DNA of 34,252 nucleotides from a virus, in IMG/VR virus record IMGVR_UViG_3300033144_001707, positions 1 through 34,252 of that record. The stretch is one strand, 5' to 3'. The translations under genes were made by a program, and so were the position numbers. Below the pieces are notes generated by a model, which did no database searches, was not told where the DNA came from, and worked only from the letters and a program-made list of their open reading frames with translations. Shown piece after piece: positions 1 through 34,252 of this stretch. Positions within the stretch are counted from its first letter, which is position 1. Each line of letters begins with the position of its first letter.

Positions 1-19
1 TACTGGCAAGCAACAGGAA

Positions 20-8377: not shown

Positions 8378-8713
8378 ATGTCAAAGACGCCGAAAATTAA
8401 AGTCACGCCTTTAAACGATAAGGCATATCACCCTTACAACAGCAAAAAGAAGCTTTCCAAGGACGGCGAAGTTTTCGACAGGCTTTGCACACGACTAGCC
8501 CGCCAACAACGACAAGGCTTCATTAAAATTGAGCAGTATCGCGAAGCCGACAACAAGGAAGAGACTAAAAAGGAAGCGGCGCCAGTGAAAAAAGAAGAAC
8601 AAATTTCAAAAGAGGCGGAATCAGAACCCGCCACAAAGAAAGCAGCAAAAAAGGCCAAGGCTAAGAAATCCGCCAAAGGTCACCAATCAAAACCCGCAAC
8701 GACTGACGAATAA
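8378..8713 (+). CDS. Small pre-sheath protein, Mu gp38 (DUF2635) position
   Basis: A 111-aa protein directly before the sheath gene, where Mu-like phages carry the short gp38/DUF2635 protein. Residues 1-55 resemble that domain in layout (KVTPLNDKAYHPYNSKKKL, then GEVFDRLCTRLARQQRQGFI). Residues 56-111 are an added Lys/Ala/Glu-rich, probably disordered tail. Its stop overlaps the sheath ATG (TAATG). Function in the family is not known to me, and the highly basic tail is unusual. Confidence 0.55.
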   Translation: MSKTPKIKVTPLNDKAYHPYNSKKKLSKDGEVFDRLCTRLARQQRQGFIKIEQYREADNKEETKKEAAPVKKEEQISKEAESEPATKKAAKKAKAKKSAKGHQSKPATTDE

Positions 8714-25635: not shown

Positions 25636-25908
25636 ATGGAGTGGGTCGAAAAGGTCGTAAAGGAATATTGGGTTTCAACTGTAACCGGTGGGGGCGTTCT
25701 TGCTGGCGCCGGTTTTGTGGGTCGATGGGTTTTAGGTTGGTTTCAGCGAATAATTGATGAAAAAGACAAAACAATTCGTTACCTCAAAGAGCAAATTAAG
25801 TCCGAGCGATCACAGTTCGAGACAATCGACAAGTCTCGAAAAGACTTTATCGAGCAATTGCAACGACAACTTGAATCGTTATCAAAGGAAAAGCCTAAAA
25901 ATGATTAA
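25636..25908 (+). CDS. TM/coiled-coil protein, inner spanin-like
   Basis: 90 aa. One membrane segment (STVTGGGVLAGAGFVGRWVLG, residues about 14-34) is followed by a charged coiled coil (IIDEKDKTIRYLKEQI, then SRKDFIEQLQRQLESL). The topology, an N-terminal anchor and long helical arm, is that of an inner-membrane spanin or a small holin accessory, next to a lipoprotein and holin-like protein. It overlaps the receiver-domain gene by 8 nt. No named family; the spanin call is inferred. Confidence 0.5.
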   Translation: MEWVEKVVKEYWVSTVTGGGVLAGAGFVGRWVLGWFQRIIDEKDKTIRYLKEQIKSERSQFETIDKSRKDFIEQLQRQLESLSKEKPKND

Positions 25909-26404
25909 GAATGTTACGAGATTCTTGGGTTATAACCCTTCGACAAAGGTTCAGAAGCAGGACAGCCGAGCGCATATCGTGATTGCGGACGACAACGAAG
26001 CCGATTTGAAGCTTCTGGAATACTGCATTCGTCGCGAATTTACCAATATTGACATAGTGAAGCTTAAGAGCTTTTCGGAATCAATGGATTATCTTGAAGA
26101 AATCCGTCGCGGGGACCGTCCGGCGCCAACATTGGCGTTTGTAGACTACTATATGCCGAAAATGACCGGCCTTGATTTTTCAATGATGCTTTCAAATGTC
26201 GTCGCCGGTTGCGAAATATACATTCAGACCGGCGAATTGACGCATTACGAATCGCTTGAAAAGGCGGCAATGAAGGTTTACCCCGTCAAAAGATTTCTTC
26301 CCAAGGACCTATATTTTCAATCGGCTGTAAAATGCTTGAAAGCCCATTTGCTTGGGCAGCCTTCCGGAAGTCCGCAAGATAATCAAGGGTTGAGTCACGC
26401 TTAA
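25901..26404 (+). CDS. CheY-like response-regulator receiver protein
   Basis: 167 aa from ATG 25901, which overlaps the previous stop; longer in-frame starts lie inside the upstream gene. A receiver fold spans about residues 24-150. The acidic pair is D30-D31 (VIADDNEAD), phospho-acceptor D82 (LAFVDYYMPKMTG), switch Thr T110 (IYIQTGE) and conserved Lys K135 (KRFLPKDL). All key residues are present, so it should accept phosphate. There is no output domain. Such stand-alone receivers are rare in phage genomes. It converges with and overlaps the endolysin gene by 119 nt. Confidence 0.88.
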   Translation: MIKNVTRFLGYNPSTKVQKQDSRAHIVIADDNEADLKLLEYCIRREFTNIDIVKLKSFSESMDYLEEIRRGDRPAPTLAFVDYYMPKMTGLDFSMMLSNVVAGCEIYIQTGELTHYESLEKAAMKVYPVKRFLPKDLYFQSAVKCLKAHLLGQPSGSPQDNQGLSHA

Positions 26405-26738
26405 AGCCGTTTAAACCGCCGTTGTGTATGCGGGCGCAATCTTCAGCCGTTGGCAACCTTCCAAGGCGCTGACGGGTCGCATATCGCTTCATATAGCCCA
26501 ATACGATCTTGCATGAGGTCAACCGGTGGAACGCATCGCGCGGCCAAACGTAATTGGTCCCCAATTCCTTGTTTGCGTCTTCCAAATACTTTTTATGAAT
26601 TTGGAATTGGCCCGCCGCTTCATATTTGCCTGTTTCTTTGTTTAAATCGCCCATACAATAGCAGAATTCGGCATTCTGGCACTTGCAATTCGGGGTTTCG
26701 CAAGCGATCAAGAGAACTAGGAAGGTTAAAAAGTCCAT
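26286..26738 (-). CDS. Transglycosylase-like endolysin
   Basis: 150 aa. The core GDLNKETGKYEAAGQFQIHKKY, then DANKELG, and ARIHNGGLNGFK with DSTLDYLADF match transglycosylase-like lysins found in phages and bacteria (typically GPLQIR...DVN and RIHNGGPNG). E14 in LLIACETPN is the candidate catalytic Glu, so the hydrophobic first 17 residues are more likely the catalytic helix than a signal peptide. Five Cys cluster at residues 13-28, unusual for the family. Translated from a leftward operon behind the repressor. The 3' end overlaps the receiver gene. Confidence 0.7.
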   Translation of the reverse strand: MDFLTFLVLLIACETPNCKCQNAEFCYCMGDLNKETGKYEAAGQFQIHKKYLEDANKELGTNYVWPRDAFHRLTSCKIVLGYMKRYATRQRLGRLPTAEDCARIHNGGLNGFKRDSTLDYLADFRKAAQANGLSSILQPIENIGPWEEIF

Positions 26739-27078: not shown

Positions 27079-28380
27079 TTAGTAGTTTATGGAAACATTC
27101 GGAACGTTGCCCGCTTCGATTTCGGCAAGGACGTCTTCAGCCATTTCAAGCCCGTTGTCGCGTCCGTGCGTTACGGCGTTTTGAATCGCGTCCGAGATGG
27201 CGCAAACCGCTTGATGATGAACCTTTATACGGTGGTTTTCGTCTTCCTTGCGTTTGAATTCTTCTTGCGCTTTCGCCCTTTCTTCGGCTTCGACCTTGGC
27301 GCGGGCTTCAGCTTCGGCCTTTTTCTTGGCTTCGGCTTCTTGCTCCTCTTGTCTTTGGCTGGCCGCCTGAAGTGATTTTTCAAGCGATGCAATCGCCATT
27401 TCTTGCGCGGTTCGGGCTTCTTCGGCGAATTCTCCAAAGGAATCGTCGATTTCGACCTTCTTTACGTCAAAGATTCGATCTTGTATTGAATCGGCTGAAC
27501 GTTCGCCAACATTAACCGACGATTTTATTTCGTCGATATAATGGCGGATTCGTTCAATTCGCTTTCTTTCGGTTTCCTCTTTGGCCTTCTTGGCGGCTTT
27601 TTCGGCTTCGTATTTTTCGGCCTTAAGCTTTTCTTCGCGCTCTTTGGCTTCTTTTTCGGCCTTTTCCTTGGCTTCAGCTTCAATACGCGCCTTTTCTTCC
27701 GCTTGGCGTTTTTCTTCGGCCTCTTTGCGCTCTTTCTCTTCGCGTTCGGCCTTTTCTTTACGCAAGCGCTCCAGTTCCGCCGCTTCTTTTTCCTTCTTAA
27801 CTGTATCTTCCAACAGTTTTTCGAGCTTTGCAACGGCTTCAGCCTTTACGCGATGCGCTTCGTTTTCGAATTCTTCAAAAGCTGAATCAACTTTGTATTC
27901 TTTTAGGTTGTCGAGATTCGCCTTTATTTGTTCCGAATTAAAACCAAGGGTAATTTCAGAATCGGCATAATCTGAAATATGCTTGATCCAGCCCTTTAAT
28001 TCGTTAATCCGCTCTTTTTCTTGGTTTTCCCATATATCAAGAGGCTTGCGAGCTTCGGCGGCCATTTCGTCGAATGCGTCACGAACCTTGCGGCGTTCAG
28101 CGTTTACCGCGTCGATTTGTTGCTTGGCTTCGGCTGTAAGCTTTTTGCCAGCGTCTTCAAATGCGGTTTTCGATTTGCGAAACTTATGGGCAAATGAGGC
28201 AATTTCTTTGCGTCCCTTGGCCGTTGATACGTCCGGAACGAAAGATTCAAGCTCTTTGCGGTGGGCTTCAATAATCGTTTCGATTACGTCTTTGTTTGTG
28301 AACTTTTCGATTGTGTTTACTTGGTCGACAGCGACCAATGCGTTTGATTCTGTTTGTTTTTCTGTTTCTGTTTCTGGCAT
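27079..28380 (-). CDS. Long coiled-coil phage protein (recombination-module type)
   Basis: 433 aa. The first ~140 residues contain a pattern I know from coiled-coil proteins of phage recombination modules: ELESFVPDVSTAKGRKEIAS, FRKSKTAFEDAGKKL, then VNAERRKVRDAFDEM and EARKPLDIWENQEKERI. Residues about 190-280 and 335-385 are Glu/Lys/Ala-rich heptads, a very long coiled coil. Two copies of a segment around HISDYADSEI and HYIDEIKSSV flank the coil. Such proteins often neighbour RecE/RecT-type genes; here the RecE-like gene is on the other strand. Start one base after the repressor stop. Confidence 0.75.
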   Translation of the reverse strand: MPETETEKQTESNALVAVDQVNTIEKFTNKDVIETIIEAHRKELESFVPDVSTAKGRKEIASFAHKFRKSKTAFEDAGKKLTAEAKQQIDAVNAERRKVRDAFDEMAAEARKPLDIWENQEKERINELKGWIKHISDYADSEITLGFNSEQIKANLDNLKEYKVDSAFEEFENEAHRVKAEAVAKLEKLLEDTVKKEKEAAELERLRKEKAEREEKERKEAEEKRQAEEKARIEAEAKEKAEKEAKEREEKLKAEKYEAEKAAKKAKEETERKRIERIRHYIDEIKSSVNVGERSADSIQDRIFDVKKVEIDDSFGEFAEEARTAQEMAIASLEKSLQAASQRQEEQEAEAKKKAEAEARAKVEAEERAKAQEEFKRKEDENHRIKVHHQAVCAISDAIQNAVTHGRDNGLEMAEDVLAEIEAGNVPNVSINY

Positions 28381-28381
28381 T

Positions 28382-28657
28382 TTATTTTAGGTTTATGGTG
28401 ATAGATTCAACCGAATCGTCCAATCCGGCGTTTTCAATAAGGTCTTGGCAATGAGCTTCAAAAAGCGCAATTCGGGTTTCCGGCTTCTTGAATCCTTTGA
28501 AGAACGATTTTTGCGTTTCGATTGATAGGGTTTTGACTCGTCCCTTTTCCCAATTGGAAAGGGAAGGGACCATTAAACCGGTATTCCCGCAAAAGTCGGT
28601 AAGCGTTAAGCCTTCATGCTGAAGGGCGGCTTTAAATGTATTTCTTAAGTTATCCAT
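28382..28657 (-). CDS. XRE/Cro-CI-type repressor
   Basis: 91 aa from ATG at 28657; a longer frame to 28753 would run across the switch region and is unlikely. Residues about 3-55 fit a lambda-repressor-like HTH: LRNTFKAALQHEGLTLTDFC, with recognition helix region GLMVPSLSNWEKGR. The C-terminal 35 residues are acidic and could dimerise. There is no LexA-type protease domain. It faces the rightward gene across a 78-bp operator region and heads the leftward operon. It probably binds the two TTTCG...GAAA sites and represses both promoters. Confidence 0.72.
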   Translation of the reverse strand: MDNLRNTFKAALQHEGLTLTDFCGNTGLMVPSLSNWEKGRVKTLSIETQKSFFKGFKKPETRIALFEAHCQDLIENAGLDDSVESITINLK

Positions 28658-28663
28658 TTTCGC

Positions 28664-28692
28664 AGTATTTCGGAAAACGAAACTTTTTTCAA
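28664..28692 (-). promoter_or_regulatory. Leftward switch promoter (repressor gene)
   Basis: On the minus strand TTGAAA (28692-28687), 17-bp spacer, AATACT (28669-28664), then six bases to ATG 28657. The expected start is on or next to the A of the ATG, so the RNA is probably leaderless, like lambda cI from PRM. The operator 28668-28682 lies in the spacer and touches the -10. Confidence 0.65.
28668..28682. promoter_or_regulatory. Operator site 1
   Basis: TTTCGGAAAACGAAA, a perfect 5-bp inverted repeat (TTTCG/CGAAA) with 5-bp centre, inside the spacer of the leftward promoter. It matches operator 2 at 11 of 15 positions when both are read in the direction of their promoter. Confidence 0.65.
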
Positions 28693-28700
28693 TAAAAAAC

Positions 28701-28729
28701 TTGAACAAACTTTCGAAATCTGAAATTCT
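28701..28729 (+). promoter_or_regulatory. Rightward switch promoter (early genes)
   Basis: TTGAAC (28701-28706), 17-bp spacer, AATTCT (28724-28729), then six bases to ATG 28736. Aligned with the leftward promoter from -35 to ATG the two share about two thirds of bases. The transcript would again start at the ATG. Confidence 0.6.
28711..28725. promoter_or_regulatory. Operator site 2
   Basis: TTTCGAAATCTGAAA, four bases after the rightward -35 and reaching into the -10, mirroring operator 1. The two sites are 43 bp apart start to start, about four helix turns, so dimers bound at both would lie on the same face of the DNA. Confidence 0.65.
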
Positions 28730-28735
28730 TGCAAC

Positions 28736-28921
28736 ATGAGCGAAGAGGCACAACGAAAAGTTTACGGACTTATAAACAATACAACGCGGCTTTTGACGAC
28801 TCCCAAGAACGATTCAGAAGTTCGGGAAACGGCAATTGCTTATTTAGAGATAATTCAGCGAATCAAGCCGGAACACTTGAAGCAAATCAAGCTTTCGCCA
28901 GATTCGCCGATTATTCTATAA
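28736..28921 (+). CDS. First rightward early gene, 61-aa hypothetical
   Basis: A 61-aa protein in the cro position, opposite the repressor. It begins MSEEAQRKVYGLINNTTRLL and continues ETAIAYLEIIQRIKPEHLKQ, largely helical, with a short Pro-rich end. I see no convincing helix-turn-helix signature, so a Cro role is not supported by sequence, only by place. Its ATG lies at the predicted transcription start, implying translation of a leaderless RNA. A stem-loop follows the stop. Confidence 0.6.
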   Translation: MSEEAQRKVYGLINNTTRLLTTPKNDSEVRETAIAYLEIIQRIKPEHLKQIKLSPDSPIIL

Positions 28922-28929
28922 ATCAGAAA

Positions 28930-28950
28930 GGCGGCCCCGAATAGGCCGCC
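28930..28950 (+). terminator. GC-rich stem-loop after the first early gene
   Basis: GGCGGCC (28930-28936) pairs perfectly with GGCCGCC (28944-28950), loop CCGAATA. No T-run follows, so it may be a weak or factor-assisted terminator or an RNA processing/stability hairpin. An AACAGAAA octamer (28956-28963) follows. Confidence 0.5.
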
Positions 28951-29013
28951 AATCTAACAGAAAAACAATAGTTTTAATACATATCCCCGAAGGGAATAAA
29001 CAGAAAGGACAAC

Positions 29014-29913
29014 ATGAATCAGACTCAAGAAGAAGTCAACAAAATAGACGGCGTTACCGTTCACGGCGTCGAAGAAATCAACCTAAACGCGCCCGTCGAA
29101 GGAATTTATCGGAATGTCCCGTTTGACATTTACGAGAAAATCGACGCGCTAAATTCGAGCAAAATTCGCCAAGCTTGCAAGTCTGCAAAGATGTATAAGC
29201 GGTATTTGCTGCAAAAGGAAAAAGAAGAAAGCAAGACAAGCGAAGCTTTAGAGTTTGGCCGAGCTTTCGCGCTTATATGCGAAGACCCTGAAGGCGCAAA
29301 ATCCAAAATTCAGGAAGGGCCGACAAAGACTTTCGGAACAAAAGCTTGGATGGAGCAACTAGAAGCAAATCCCGAAATTATTTACGTTAAGCCGGACGCG
29401 CTTCCAATGTTGGATCAAATGGCCGAAGCTCTGTATTCTCACAAATACGCCGGTCGTTACGTTGGCGACGAATGCGCTGAAAACGAATTAACGATTGTTT
29501 GGCGCCATGTCCGGACCGGTCGATTTCTTAAAGGTAGAATCGACATTTATTCATTAAATGAAGTTATCGACGTAAAGACCACAACGACAAAGGATATTAA
29601 TCCGGATAAGTTGAAATGGTCTATCAAGGACTACCGTTACGACGTCCAAGCAACAATGTATTTCGACGGAATGGCAGCACTTGGCGCAAAGCCGAACGGT
29701 TGCAGCTTGTTTTTTGTTGAAAAGCATGAAGTCTTGCCGGACGTCGTTTGCCGAGCCTTTAACCCTGAAGAAATGCAAGAAGCCCGCGACGACTACAATC
29801 GCGCCTTGGACCGCATTATTGAAGGCGAAGAAACGGGTTATTATGCCGGATATGAAGACGGCGTAATTGTTCCGCTTTGGGGATTCGATGAACCAACCGT
29901 TGCTTACGATTAA
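29014..29913 (+). CDS. RecE-like PD-(D/E)XK exonuclease
   Basis: A 299-aa 5'-3' exonuclease of the RecE/ExoVIII C-terminal type, which makes 3' overhangs for strand annealing. The N-terminal part has the family start (FDIYEKIDALNSSKIRQACK, then ALEFGRAFALI, where the usual His is Ala). The catalytic core is GRIDIYS with D177, and D186-V-K188 in EVIDVKTTTT. DVQATMYFDGM carries the conserved Q212 and Y216. No RecT/Beta partner is visible in the window. GAAAGGA upstream is a good ribosome site. Confidence 0.87.
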   Translation: MNQTQEEVNKIDGVTVHGVEEINLNAPVEGIYRNVPFDIYEKIDALNSSKIRQACKSAKMYKRYLLQKEKEESKTSEALEFGRAFALICEDPEGAKSKIQEGPTKTFGTKAWMEQLEANPEIIYVKPDALPMLDQMAEALYSHKYAGRYVGDECAENELTIVWRHVRTGRFLKGRIDIYSLNEVIDVKTTTTKDINPDKLKWSIKDYRYDVQATMYFDGMAALGAKPNGCSLFFVEKHEVLPDVVCRAFNPEEMQEARDDYNRALDRIIEGEETGYYAGYEDGVIVPLWGFDEPTVAYD

Positions 29914-30801: not shown

Positions 30802-30816
30802 CCCAAACCAAAATCA

Positions 30817-30832
30817 AACAGAAAGACAGAAA
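30817..30832 (+). repeat. Tandem AACAGAAA octamer leader
   Basis: AACAGAAA then GACAGAAA, ending three bases before ATG 30836. Other copies: single at 28999-29006 and 32824-32831, tandem at 32562-32577, 33134-33149 and 33419-33434, and one without an adjacent start codon at 28956-28963. All are on the + strand in the early region. Confidence 0.7.
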
Positions 30833-30835
30833 AAC

Positions 30836-31843: not shown

Positions 31844-32481
31844 CAGCAGAAAACGAAGACCTTTACGAAATACTTGGCGTCGACCATGACGCCGGAAAAG
31901 ATGAAATCAAAGCAGCATACCGAAAACTTGCCGCAAAGCATCATCCAGACAAGAACGGCGGAAAGCATTCCGAACAGTTTTATAAAGTTCAAATGGCATA
32001 CGAGATTCTTTCGGATGATGAATCGCGCCGAAGTTACGATGCCGACGGAACCACAACGCGGGATTCGCTGGAATTTAAGGCGCATTTGCATTTCGTTGAA
32101 ACCTTTTGCCGTATATTCGCGGAAATGGCTGAAGACGCCGACATAATGCGAATAATCGAAGCAACCATTAAAAGCGATATTGCGGCGCTTAGGGCTTTTA
32201 ATAAGGCGATTGAAAAGAATATTCGCAAAATGGAAGCCATGATAAAGCGAATCAAGACGCGCGGGGAACATAACCTTATTAAACAGACATTTGAATTCAA
32301 TATTCGAGAGTTTAAAAAGCGCATTTCTCAAAATGATGCGCGTCGCGAATTGCTTGAAAAGGCGCTTGAATATACTGAATCGTATTCAGTTGAACAAATG
32401 CTTCGGCTTCCGCTTGGCGGGAATATGCCGAATACTGAACGGGCATACGATGATTTCTTGCGCGGAAGGCCGATTTATTAA
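31840..32481 (+). CDS. J-domain (DnaJ-like) protein
   Basis: 213 aa. A J-domain spans about residues 7-70: LYEILGV, helix [19 protein letters not shown] with the catalytic HPD at 35-37, then [18 protein letters not shown] is needed to stimulate DnaK ATPase. The rest (about 140 aa) is helical, lacking the G/F, zinc-finger and C-terminal domains, so substrate binding is private. It probably recruits host DnaK, perhaps to a replication complex together with the DnaA-like neighbour. Confidence 0.85.
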
Positions 32482-32509
32482 AAAAGATCGTTTTTCTTTC
32501 CGGATTGTA

Positions 32510-32538
32510 TTGACAAGGCGAATCGCTTGGGGTAAGCT
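32510..32538 (+). promoter_or_regulatory. Early promoter 1
   Basis: TTGACA (32510-32515), 17-bp spacer, TAAGCT (32533-32538), about 40-base leader to ATG 32579. The block 32493-32516 (TTTCTTTCCG[G]ATTG... through TTGACAA) recurs at 33055-33078 with a single G-to-C difference. Confidence 0.7.
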
Positions 32539-32578
32539 TGGCGAATAATCAGATTAACCCAAACGGAAAAACAGAAAA

Positions 32579-32836: not shown

Positions 32837-33007
32837 ATGAAAGTAACATACAAAACTTATAAAATCGCACTATTTAACGCAGACTGGAAGCCCCAAGAAG
32901 TTTTCGAGGTAAGAGCCTTTTGCGAATCAAGCGCAAGATTTGAAGCAAATAAAGGCATTAGACATTTGCCTTGCGGTTGGTTTGTTAAAGTTCTTGGCGT
33001 AGCGTAA
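32837..33007 (+). CDS. 56-aa hypothetical early protein
   Basis: ATG 32837 to TAA 33005-33007, 56 aa. Begins MKVTYKTYKIALFNADW, continues EVFEVRAFCESSARFEANKG and ends GWFVKVLGVA, with a beta-alpha-beta look. No known family. It follows the stem-loop and a single AACAGAAA leader, five bases before the ATG. It stops just before the CCC-GAAA-GGG and T-arm-like hairpins. Base use is like its neighbours. Confidence 0.55.
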   Translation: MKVTYKTYKIALFNADWKPQEVFEVRAFCESSARFEANKGIRHLPCGWFVKVLGVA

Positions 33008-33016
33008 ACCCGAAAG

Positions 33017-33039
33017 GGCGGGGGTTCGATCCCCCCGCC
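33017..33039 (+). other. tRNA T-arm-like hairpin, possible att core
   Basis: GGCGGGGG (33017-33024) and CCCCCGCC (33032-33039) pair perfectly around the 7-base loop TTCGATC, the TTCRANY consensus of a tRNA or tmRNA T-loop. The preceding text has CCC-GAAA-GGG and the following is an A-run. I found no acceptor 5' strand, D-arm or anticodon arm, so it is not a whole tRNA. Such 3'-end fragments are typical phage attachment cores, but no integrase is visible. A plain hairpin terminator is the alternative. Confidence 0.45.
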
Positions 33040-33071
33040 AAAAAAAACTTCAACTTTCTTTCCGCATTGTA

Positions 33072-33100
33072 TTGACAAAGCCGTTCCGGTCTGTCATGCT
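33072..33100 (+). promoter_or_regulatory. Early promoter 2
   Basis: TTGACA (33072-33077), 17-bp spacer, CATGCT (33095-33100). Preceded by the 24-bp block shared with early promoter 1 (33055-33078). A weaker -10 but the same overall layout; about 54 bases of leader precede ATG 33155. Confidence 0.6.
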
Positions 33101-33133
33101 CTTTTATGAAGGTGAGGGAAGAACCCGAACCAA

Positions 33134-33149
33134 AACAGAAAAACAGAAA
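33134..33149 (+). repeat. Perfect tandem AACAGAAA octamers
   Basis: Two exact adjacent copies of AACAGAAA, ending five bases before ATG 33155. The best example of the leader repeat in this window. Confidence 0.75.
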
Positions 33150-33154
33150 ATACA

Positions 33155-33374: not shown

Positions 33375-33418
33375 CTTTACTACCCCATATCTATTTTCAT
33401 AGCATTCTACTTACACCA

Positions 33419-33434
33419 AACAGCAAAACAGAAA
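33419..33434 (+). repeat. Tandem octamer leader (AACAGCAA/AACAGAAA)
   Basis: Two adjacent octamers ending five bases before ATG 33440, one base different from perfect tandem. Confidence 0.65.
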
Positions 33435-33439
33435 AACCA

Positions 33440-33676: not shown

Positions 33677-33849
33677 AGAAGCGATTCAAGATTGTAGAAC
33701 GCCGGATTCAAATCGTTGAATATGTCGTTGAGGCTGAAACCGAAGAATTGGCAAAGAAGTTCGAAGGCGAAATTGAAAGCCAAGACGTCGTTGACGGTTG
33801 GGGCGAAAGCGTCGAATCATGCGTTGAACTAGCGGAGGGCGAAGAATGA
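33673..33849 (+). CDS. 58-aa acidic hypothetical protein
   Basis: ATG 33673 overlaps the previous TGA and the frame stops at TGA 33847-33849, 58 aa. A basic first dozen residues (KKRFKIVERRIQIVEYVVEA) precede a strongly acidic rest (TEELAKKF, DVVDGWGESVESCVELAEGE). This beta-helix-beta layout with EYVVEAET is common in small phage proteins of unknown role. Both ends overlap neighbours by four bases. Confidence 0.55.
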   Translation: MKKRFKIVERRIQIVEYVVEAETEELAKKFEGEIESQDVVDGWGESVESCVELAEGEE

Positions 33850-34252
33850 ACACCGTCCCCGCAACTTCCCTTGCCGTTTACCAAGAGCTTTCGAAGACGA
33901 ACTTCTTCAACACCAAGCGCGGCGAAGTGTTTGAATTCATCATGCGGAAAGGCGAATGCACCATTTCGCAAGCAATCGAAGCCATTGAATCCAAGCGAGA
34001 CAGCTCGATAAATGCTAGATTCTCAGAGCTTGAACGCATGGACTTGATTGAAGTCTTCAAATACGCGCAAGACCCGCTTGGAAGCTTCGAGGTTAGCTTT
34101 TACAGGCCGACCGGACGCTTACCCCTAAAACTCAAGAAACCCGTCCCCTTGAAGGCGCAAATCGCCGATTTGAAAGAATTGCTGAACGAGTGTTATAACA
34201 CCTTGCCAGCTTGGGAAACCGAACTTCGAAATAAAATTAAATATAAATTGGA
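33846..34252 (+). CDS. Winged-helix-like protein, cut by window edge
   Basis: At least 135 aa, open at the right edge. Residues about 25-70 look like a winged helix: RGEVFEFIMRKGECTISQAI, then SSINARFSELERMDLIEVF. After a Pro/Lys linker a helix follows (IADLKELLNECYNTL). If the molecule is circular the frame continues through position 1 into the terminase small-subunit frame at 20. That would place this HTH at the N-terminus of the small terminase, where DNA-binding domains normally sit. Confidence 0.6.
   Translation, partial: MNTVPATSLAVYQELSKTNFFNTKRGEVFEFIMRKGECTISQAIEAIESKRDSSINARFSELERMDLIEVFKYAQDPLGSFEVSFYRPTGRLPLKLKKPVPLKAQIADLKELLNECYNTLPAWETELRNKIKYKL

Follow-up and report, generated by a model that had tools for sequence, protein, structure and literature searches.

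The control region of this virus, in the 34,252-nt stretch analyzed here (IMG/VR record IMGVR_UViG_3300033144_001707, positions 1 to 34,252; "the window"), consists of two divergent promoter-like arms that are near mirror images of each other and occupy the 78 bp (28658–28735) between the start codons of a putative repressor gene and of the first gene of an early operon. We interpret the region as the divergent operator-promoter of a phage early-control locus, in which a single protein, the 91-aa product of the leftward gene, would bind within both promoter spacers and repress both operons; we regard this reading as reasonably probable. The features on which it is based are listed in Table 1.

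Table 1. Features of the divergent control region and its flanking genes, with the evidence for each.
Feature	Positions	Strand	Evidence
Mirror block, both divergent promoter-operator arms with their ATGs	28655..28738	.	84 bp; arm identity and palindrome rank
Left arm (TTGAAA-17-AATACT-6-ATG), predicted to drive the repressor operon from a leaderless start	28655..28692	-	Sequence; promoter scan 9/12
Right arm (TTGAAC-17-AATTCT-6-ATG, TGn ahead of the -10), predicted to drive the early operon from a leaderless start	28701..28738	+	Sequence; 7/12 matches
Putative operator in left spacer, perfect 5+5 palindrome TTTCG-N5-CGAAA	28668..28682	.	Pattern and palindrome search
Putative operator in right spacer, TTTCG-N5-TGAAA, one mismatch	28711..28725	.	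Pattern search
Extra TTTCG half-site beside the repressor ATG	28658..28662	+	10 bp from the first half of the left operator
91-aa putative Cro/CI-type (Xre) repressor	28382..28657	-	HTH_26, HTH_3, PHROG regulators, XRE structure (all weak)
433-aa phrog_1376 protein	27079..28380	-	ATG one base past the repressor stop; PHROG match
61-aa ORF, first of the early operon	28736..28921	+	Codon usage; HTH searches (Pfam, PHROGs, fold) negative
RecE/exonuclease VIII-type nuclease	29014..29913	+	PDDEXK families (Pfam); phrog_412 exonuclease VIII, E 7.5e-36

Both arms share the build TTGAA[A/C]-17-AAT[A/T]CT-6-ATG, as the first-pass annotation of this DNA had described. On the minus strand, TTGAAA (28692–28687) is followed by a 17-bp spacer, AATACT (28669–28664), GCGAAA and the ATG at 28657–28655, giving TTGAAA-AAAGTTTCGTTTTCCGA-AATACT-GCGAAA-ATG. 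On the plus strand, TTGAAC (28701–28706), again with a 17-bp spacer, precedes AATTCT (28724–28729), TGCAAC and the ATG at 28736–28738, giving TTGAAC-AAACTTTCGAAATCTGA-AATTCT-TGCAAC-ATG. The arms are identical at 27 of 38 positions, close to the 27 of 39 estimated previously, and at 24 of 35 if the ATG is excluded. None of 20,000 dinucleotide shuffles of the gap reached the latter value (10.2 +/- 3.0 of 35), and the block is the top-scoring imperfect palindrome with 38-bp arms in the whole window (27 pairs, loops of 0–20 bases), where the background at a loop of 8 has a mean of 9.4 pairs (sd 2.8). Among 128 other divergent ORF gaps from phage loci, the best score was 24/38 when maximized over position and loop, and the ATG-anchored arm identity is 12/35 in lambda, 9/35 in PY54 and 8/35 in Piluca. 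Because the shuffles, the remaining palindromes of the window, the other gaps and the three named phages all score lower, the mirror symmetry is genuine and unusually strong.

The arms resemble each other mainly in the -35, operator and -10 elements; elsewhere their identity is near chance. Identical columns make up 5/6 of the -35 hexamer, 3/4 of the next four bases, all of TTTCG (5/5), of the GA that ends the spacer (2/2) and of GAAA (4/4), and 5/6 of the -10 hexamer (3/4 for the four -10 bases outside GAAA), compared with 2/6 in the operator core and 2/6 in the discriminator. Outside the -35, the operator halves and the -10, 7 of 16 columns are identical, versus about 29% expected from composition. 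The full arm pattern, TTGAANNNNNTTTCGNNNNNYGAAATNCTNNNNNNATG, matches in the window at these two arms only. The block is thus best read as one module used twice in the same register, having arisen by inverted duplication or by convergence.

As promoters, the arms are predictions from sequence. Their -10 hexamers are weak, with 4/6 and 3/6 matches to TATAAT, and a simple promoter scan reports the left arm only; over a 2.5-kb stretch it returns 3 promoter-like sites versus 3.1 expected from shuffles. The same promoter grammar recurs with a consensus -35 at 32510 (TTGACA-17-TAAGCT) and 33072 (TTGACA-17-CATGCT), and these promoter-like sequences support the grammar proposed for the arms. In both arms, the 6-nt discriminator places the predicted start on the A of the ATG, which bears out, as a prediction from spacing, the earlier proposal that each start falls on its ATG, and both messages probably begin at the AUG or within a few bases of it. 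Among the 18 gene starts with sufficient upstream room, four (8378, 24761, 28657 and 28736) carry TTGA-16..18-NANNNT separated from the start by exactly 6 nt, compared with 0.05 in shuffles, and the motif occurs at no other distance from 0 to 13 from the 18 testable starts. This agreement is only suggestive of leaderless starts, because the comparison was devised with both arms already in view and because 8378 and 24761 are weak cases, with a weak -10 or a GGAG immediately before the ATG. A missing Shine–Dalgarno sequence is likewise weak evidence, since strong ones are the exception among the genes of this phage, and was dropped as proof of leaderless starts. The symmetry could also be real and the starts not leaderless, if the -10s are misassigned and transcripts begin upstream, with A-rich or unstructured leaders like those from which most genes of this phage would be translated. 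The weakness of the -10 hexamers and the normality of Shine–Dalgarno-free leaders in this phage speak for such upstream starts, but a -10 lies six bases before the ATG independently in both arms, and likewise at two other genes, and we judge them unlikely, at a level that still deserves serious weight.

Within each spacer, a 15-bp palindromic site of the form TTTCG-N5-[C/T]GAAA starts four bases past the -35 hexamer, so that one operator-like site overlaps each promoter, in the position that the first-pass annotation had assigned to it. Half-sites 10 bp apart have the spacing expected for a dimer of a helix–turn–helix (HTH) protein. The centres of the two sites are separated by 43 bp, or about four helical turns. 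At this 10-bp spacing the window contains three perfect TTTCG/CGAAA pairs (28168, 28668 and 30164), where 0.2 would be expected, and it contains none at the other spacings from 5 to 19. The looser 15-mer TTTCG-N6-GAAA has three copies elsewhere in the window, all within ORFs (11522, 28168 and 30164). The symmetric repression suggested earlier does not follow from this layout. The arms are unequal on paper, because the left site is perfect and accompanied by a third half-site, for which there is no mirror counterpart, whereas the right site carries one mismatch, whose base creates a TGn extended -10. Repression of the two arms is probably not symmetric, as far as the sites themselves indicate.

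The gene adjoining the left arm encodes a plausible, if weakly matched, repressor, in keeping with the role proposed for it previously. Its 91-aa product matches HTH_26 (E 0.0032) and HTH_3 (E 0.021), both under the Pfam cut-off, and shows weak matches to PHROG regulators and to an XRE regulator structure (E 0.22); the single-sequence structure model is poor (pLDDT 60). The repressor gene and the phrog_1376 gene are probably co-transcribed, judging from the single base between the stop codon of the former and the ATG of the latter. The weak HTH assignment would also fit an arrangement in which a host regulator or another phage protein binds the sites, the 91-aa protein acts elsewhere and the early genes tap a host signal, as would the further perfect sites inside ORFs at 28168 and 30164. 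We consider this improbable, as the paired sites flank the divergent gene of an HTH-like protein, which is the usual place for such a protein's own operators.

On the right, the early operon begins with the 61-aa ORF, whose codon usage is moderately coding-like, and continues with the RecE-type nuclease, a pyrophosphatase-type protein, small early genes and a DnaJ-domain protein. The 61-aa protein belongs to no recognized family, and neither Pfam, PHROGs nor a fold search detected an HTH in it; its model (pLDDT 77) is a helical hairpin with no convincing PDB match. Searches for a tyrosine integrase or serine recombinase (Phage_integrase, Resolvase) found none in this record, which looks truncated because its last ORF (33846–34250) runs to the right end without a stop. 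These results do not bear out a lambda-like switch with two repressors, and a second repressor is not evident. In a bistable switch of that type, the 61-aa protein would be a divergent Cro analogue competing with the 91-aa repressor for both operators. Its place at the head of the early operon, a length comparable to that of known Cro proteins and the twin operators are compatible with such a role, but in view of its hairpin model and the missing HTH family we give this alternative little credence. It is very improbable that the palindrome acts as a structural element (a cruciform, a replication origin or a recombination site) in place of twin promoters. In favour of that view, it is the strongest long palindrome of the window, and early replication and recombination genes follow it. 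Against it, the gain in folding of its single-stranded DNA over shuffles is modest (z -1.65), on which ground the cruciform was set aside as the main explanation, and the arm identity coincides with the -35, the operator and the -10.

The 3' end of the 61-aa ORF contains the second-strongest palindrome of the window (28835–28930, 25/38), followed by a GC hairpin at about 28930–28950, and the RNA fold of 28830–28960 has a z of -4.55. This palindrome and hairpin (28835–28951) could be an attenuator of the exonuclease operon or a structured RNA. The same ORF shares a repeat of about 34 bp (28858–28891, 85% identity) with the ORF at 32837–33007 (32922–32954); the encoded peptides are unlike.

In the one-repressor reading that we favour, the 91-aa Cro/CI-type (Xre) protein would bind as a dimer to the 15-bp sites occupying both sigma70-like promoter spacers, and the bound protein would block RNA polymerase at both. 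Repression of the left arm would amount to negative autoregulation of its own operon, comprising the repressor and phrog_1376 genes, while repression of the right arm would keep the early operon off, including the 61-aa ORF, the RecE-type exonuclease and the further early genes. The left operator is the more perfect of the two, so that autorepression would require no more repressor than does repression of the early operon. The symmetry itself would reflect two copies of one module, with -35, operator and -10 in fixed register. What the sequence establishes is the layout, the symmetry and the order of the genes; promoter activity, transcript 5' ends, the identity and binding of the repressor, the order of affinities and a possibly temperate life style are inferred.

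Several known systems share parts of this design. Twin operators of the tetR/tetA type also combine one repressor with two near-identical palindromes, which provide autoregulation and repression of the neighbouring gene, but they involve a TetR-family, ligand-induced protein and do not belong to a phage early region. Lambda OR (PRM/PR) likewise has a Cro/CI-type repressor, divergent promoters and a leaderless PRM message, but it contains three operators, a leader with a Shine–Dalgarno sequence precedes cro, and its arms show only the low identity given above. In the Yersinia telomere phage PY54, the cI and cro messages are both leaderless by 5' RACE (PMC4488713), and a pair of leaderless arms is therefore not the novelty that it had seemed to be in the first-pass annotation. 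PY54 resembles the present locus in its divergent repressor and early genes and in leaderless messages on both sides, which in the present locus are only predicted; it differs in having a true Cro, a gap of 104 bp and arms that are not mirrored (9 of 35 identities, against 9.2 expected). Mycobacteriophage BPs, in which Prep and PR diverge, uses one repressor and two operators, one in the PR spacer from -35 to -10 and the other at Prep (PMC4557955). It thus shares the divergent promoters, an operator within a promoter spacer and the single repressor, but its operator is a different, 12-bp sequence, the site at Prep overlaps the start of that promoter and does not mirror the first, and the repressor is integration-dependent. 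The paaR2/ydaS region of CP-933P in E. coli O157:H7 combines a leaderless prophage regulator with a 97-bp divergent gap and palindromic operators over both promoters; it differs in having four palindromes and two DNA-binding regulators, and, in the portion of the account considered here, leaderless expression is described for the paaR2 side only (PMC8630535). In the open-licence full text searched, we found no description of a module mirrored in the same register with each predicted start on its ATG. The locus is a tidy variant of phage control regions already known, not a new kind.

Searches for the mirrored block in other phages, proposed with the original observation, yielded no second example: over 158 loci, the pattern matches only the window's own copy (L001), and distant blastn with the block DNA gave only short chance-level pieces. 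No relatives of the 91-aa repressor were found in viral contigs, phages or plasmids. The exonuclease and the phrog_1376 protein have no relatives in the viral contigs and distant matches among phages; two of the phrog_1376 neighbourhoods were inspected, and the repressor gap of Piluca is not mirrored. Terminase and capsid searches returned distant phages and near-identical structural fragments (L003 and L036) that are too short to span the switch. Divergent TTGACA pairs with a leaderless-spaced right arm and a right ORF number 78 in the viral contigs; the left arm is also leaderless-spaced in 4, with an ATG on both sides in 2. Chance may account for these four, none of which is a recognizable repressor pair.

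Elsewhere in the window, the two copies of an 83% repeat (32480–32519 and 33042–33081) have TTGACA in matching positions, where it opens a promoter-like TTGACA-17-NANNCT in either copy. An A-rich ACAGAAAA tract recurs just upstream of small early genes (30805–30833, 32550–32578, 33122–33150 and 33407–33435) and is perhaps a translation signal replacing Shine–Dalgarno. The sequence at 33019–33036 resembles a tRNA T-arm or the 3' end of a tmRNA (Rfam gives a partial tmRNA hit with E 0.021, far short of the gathering score); it is possibly an attachment-site core, found without an integrase. On the minus strand, 26286–26738 encodes a member of the Destabilase family of invertebrate-type lysozymes (Pfam E 8.7e-8), a likely endolysin. 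It is overlapped by a convergent ORF (25901–26404) with a response-regulator receiver-like domain (Response_reg, E 9.8e-7, just under the Pfam cut-off).

More tentatively, the locus may be a minimal one-repressor switch, made of facing copies of one module with both outputs leaderless and no Cro, in which the choice depends solely on small differences between the modules and on the cell's capacity for leaderless translation; we hold this to be a minority possibility. If both arms are leaderless and share one module, they would constitute a natural matched pair that differs at 11 of 38 bases and drives opposite genes. Such a pair could be used to measure how small operator and -10 differences order repression, and could test whether leaderless starts link early and repressor expression to ribosome state. 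It would also point to further leaderless starts in the same phage, at 8378 and 24761.
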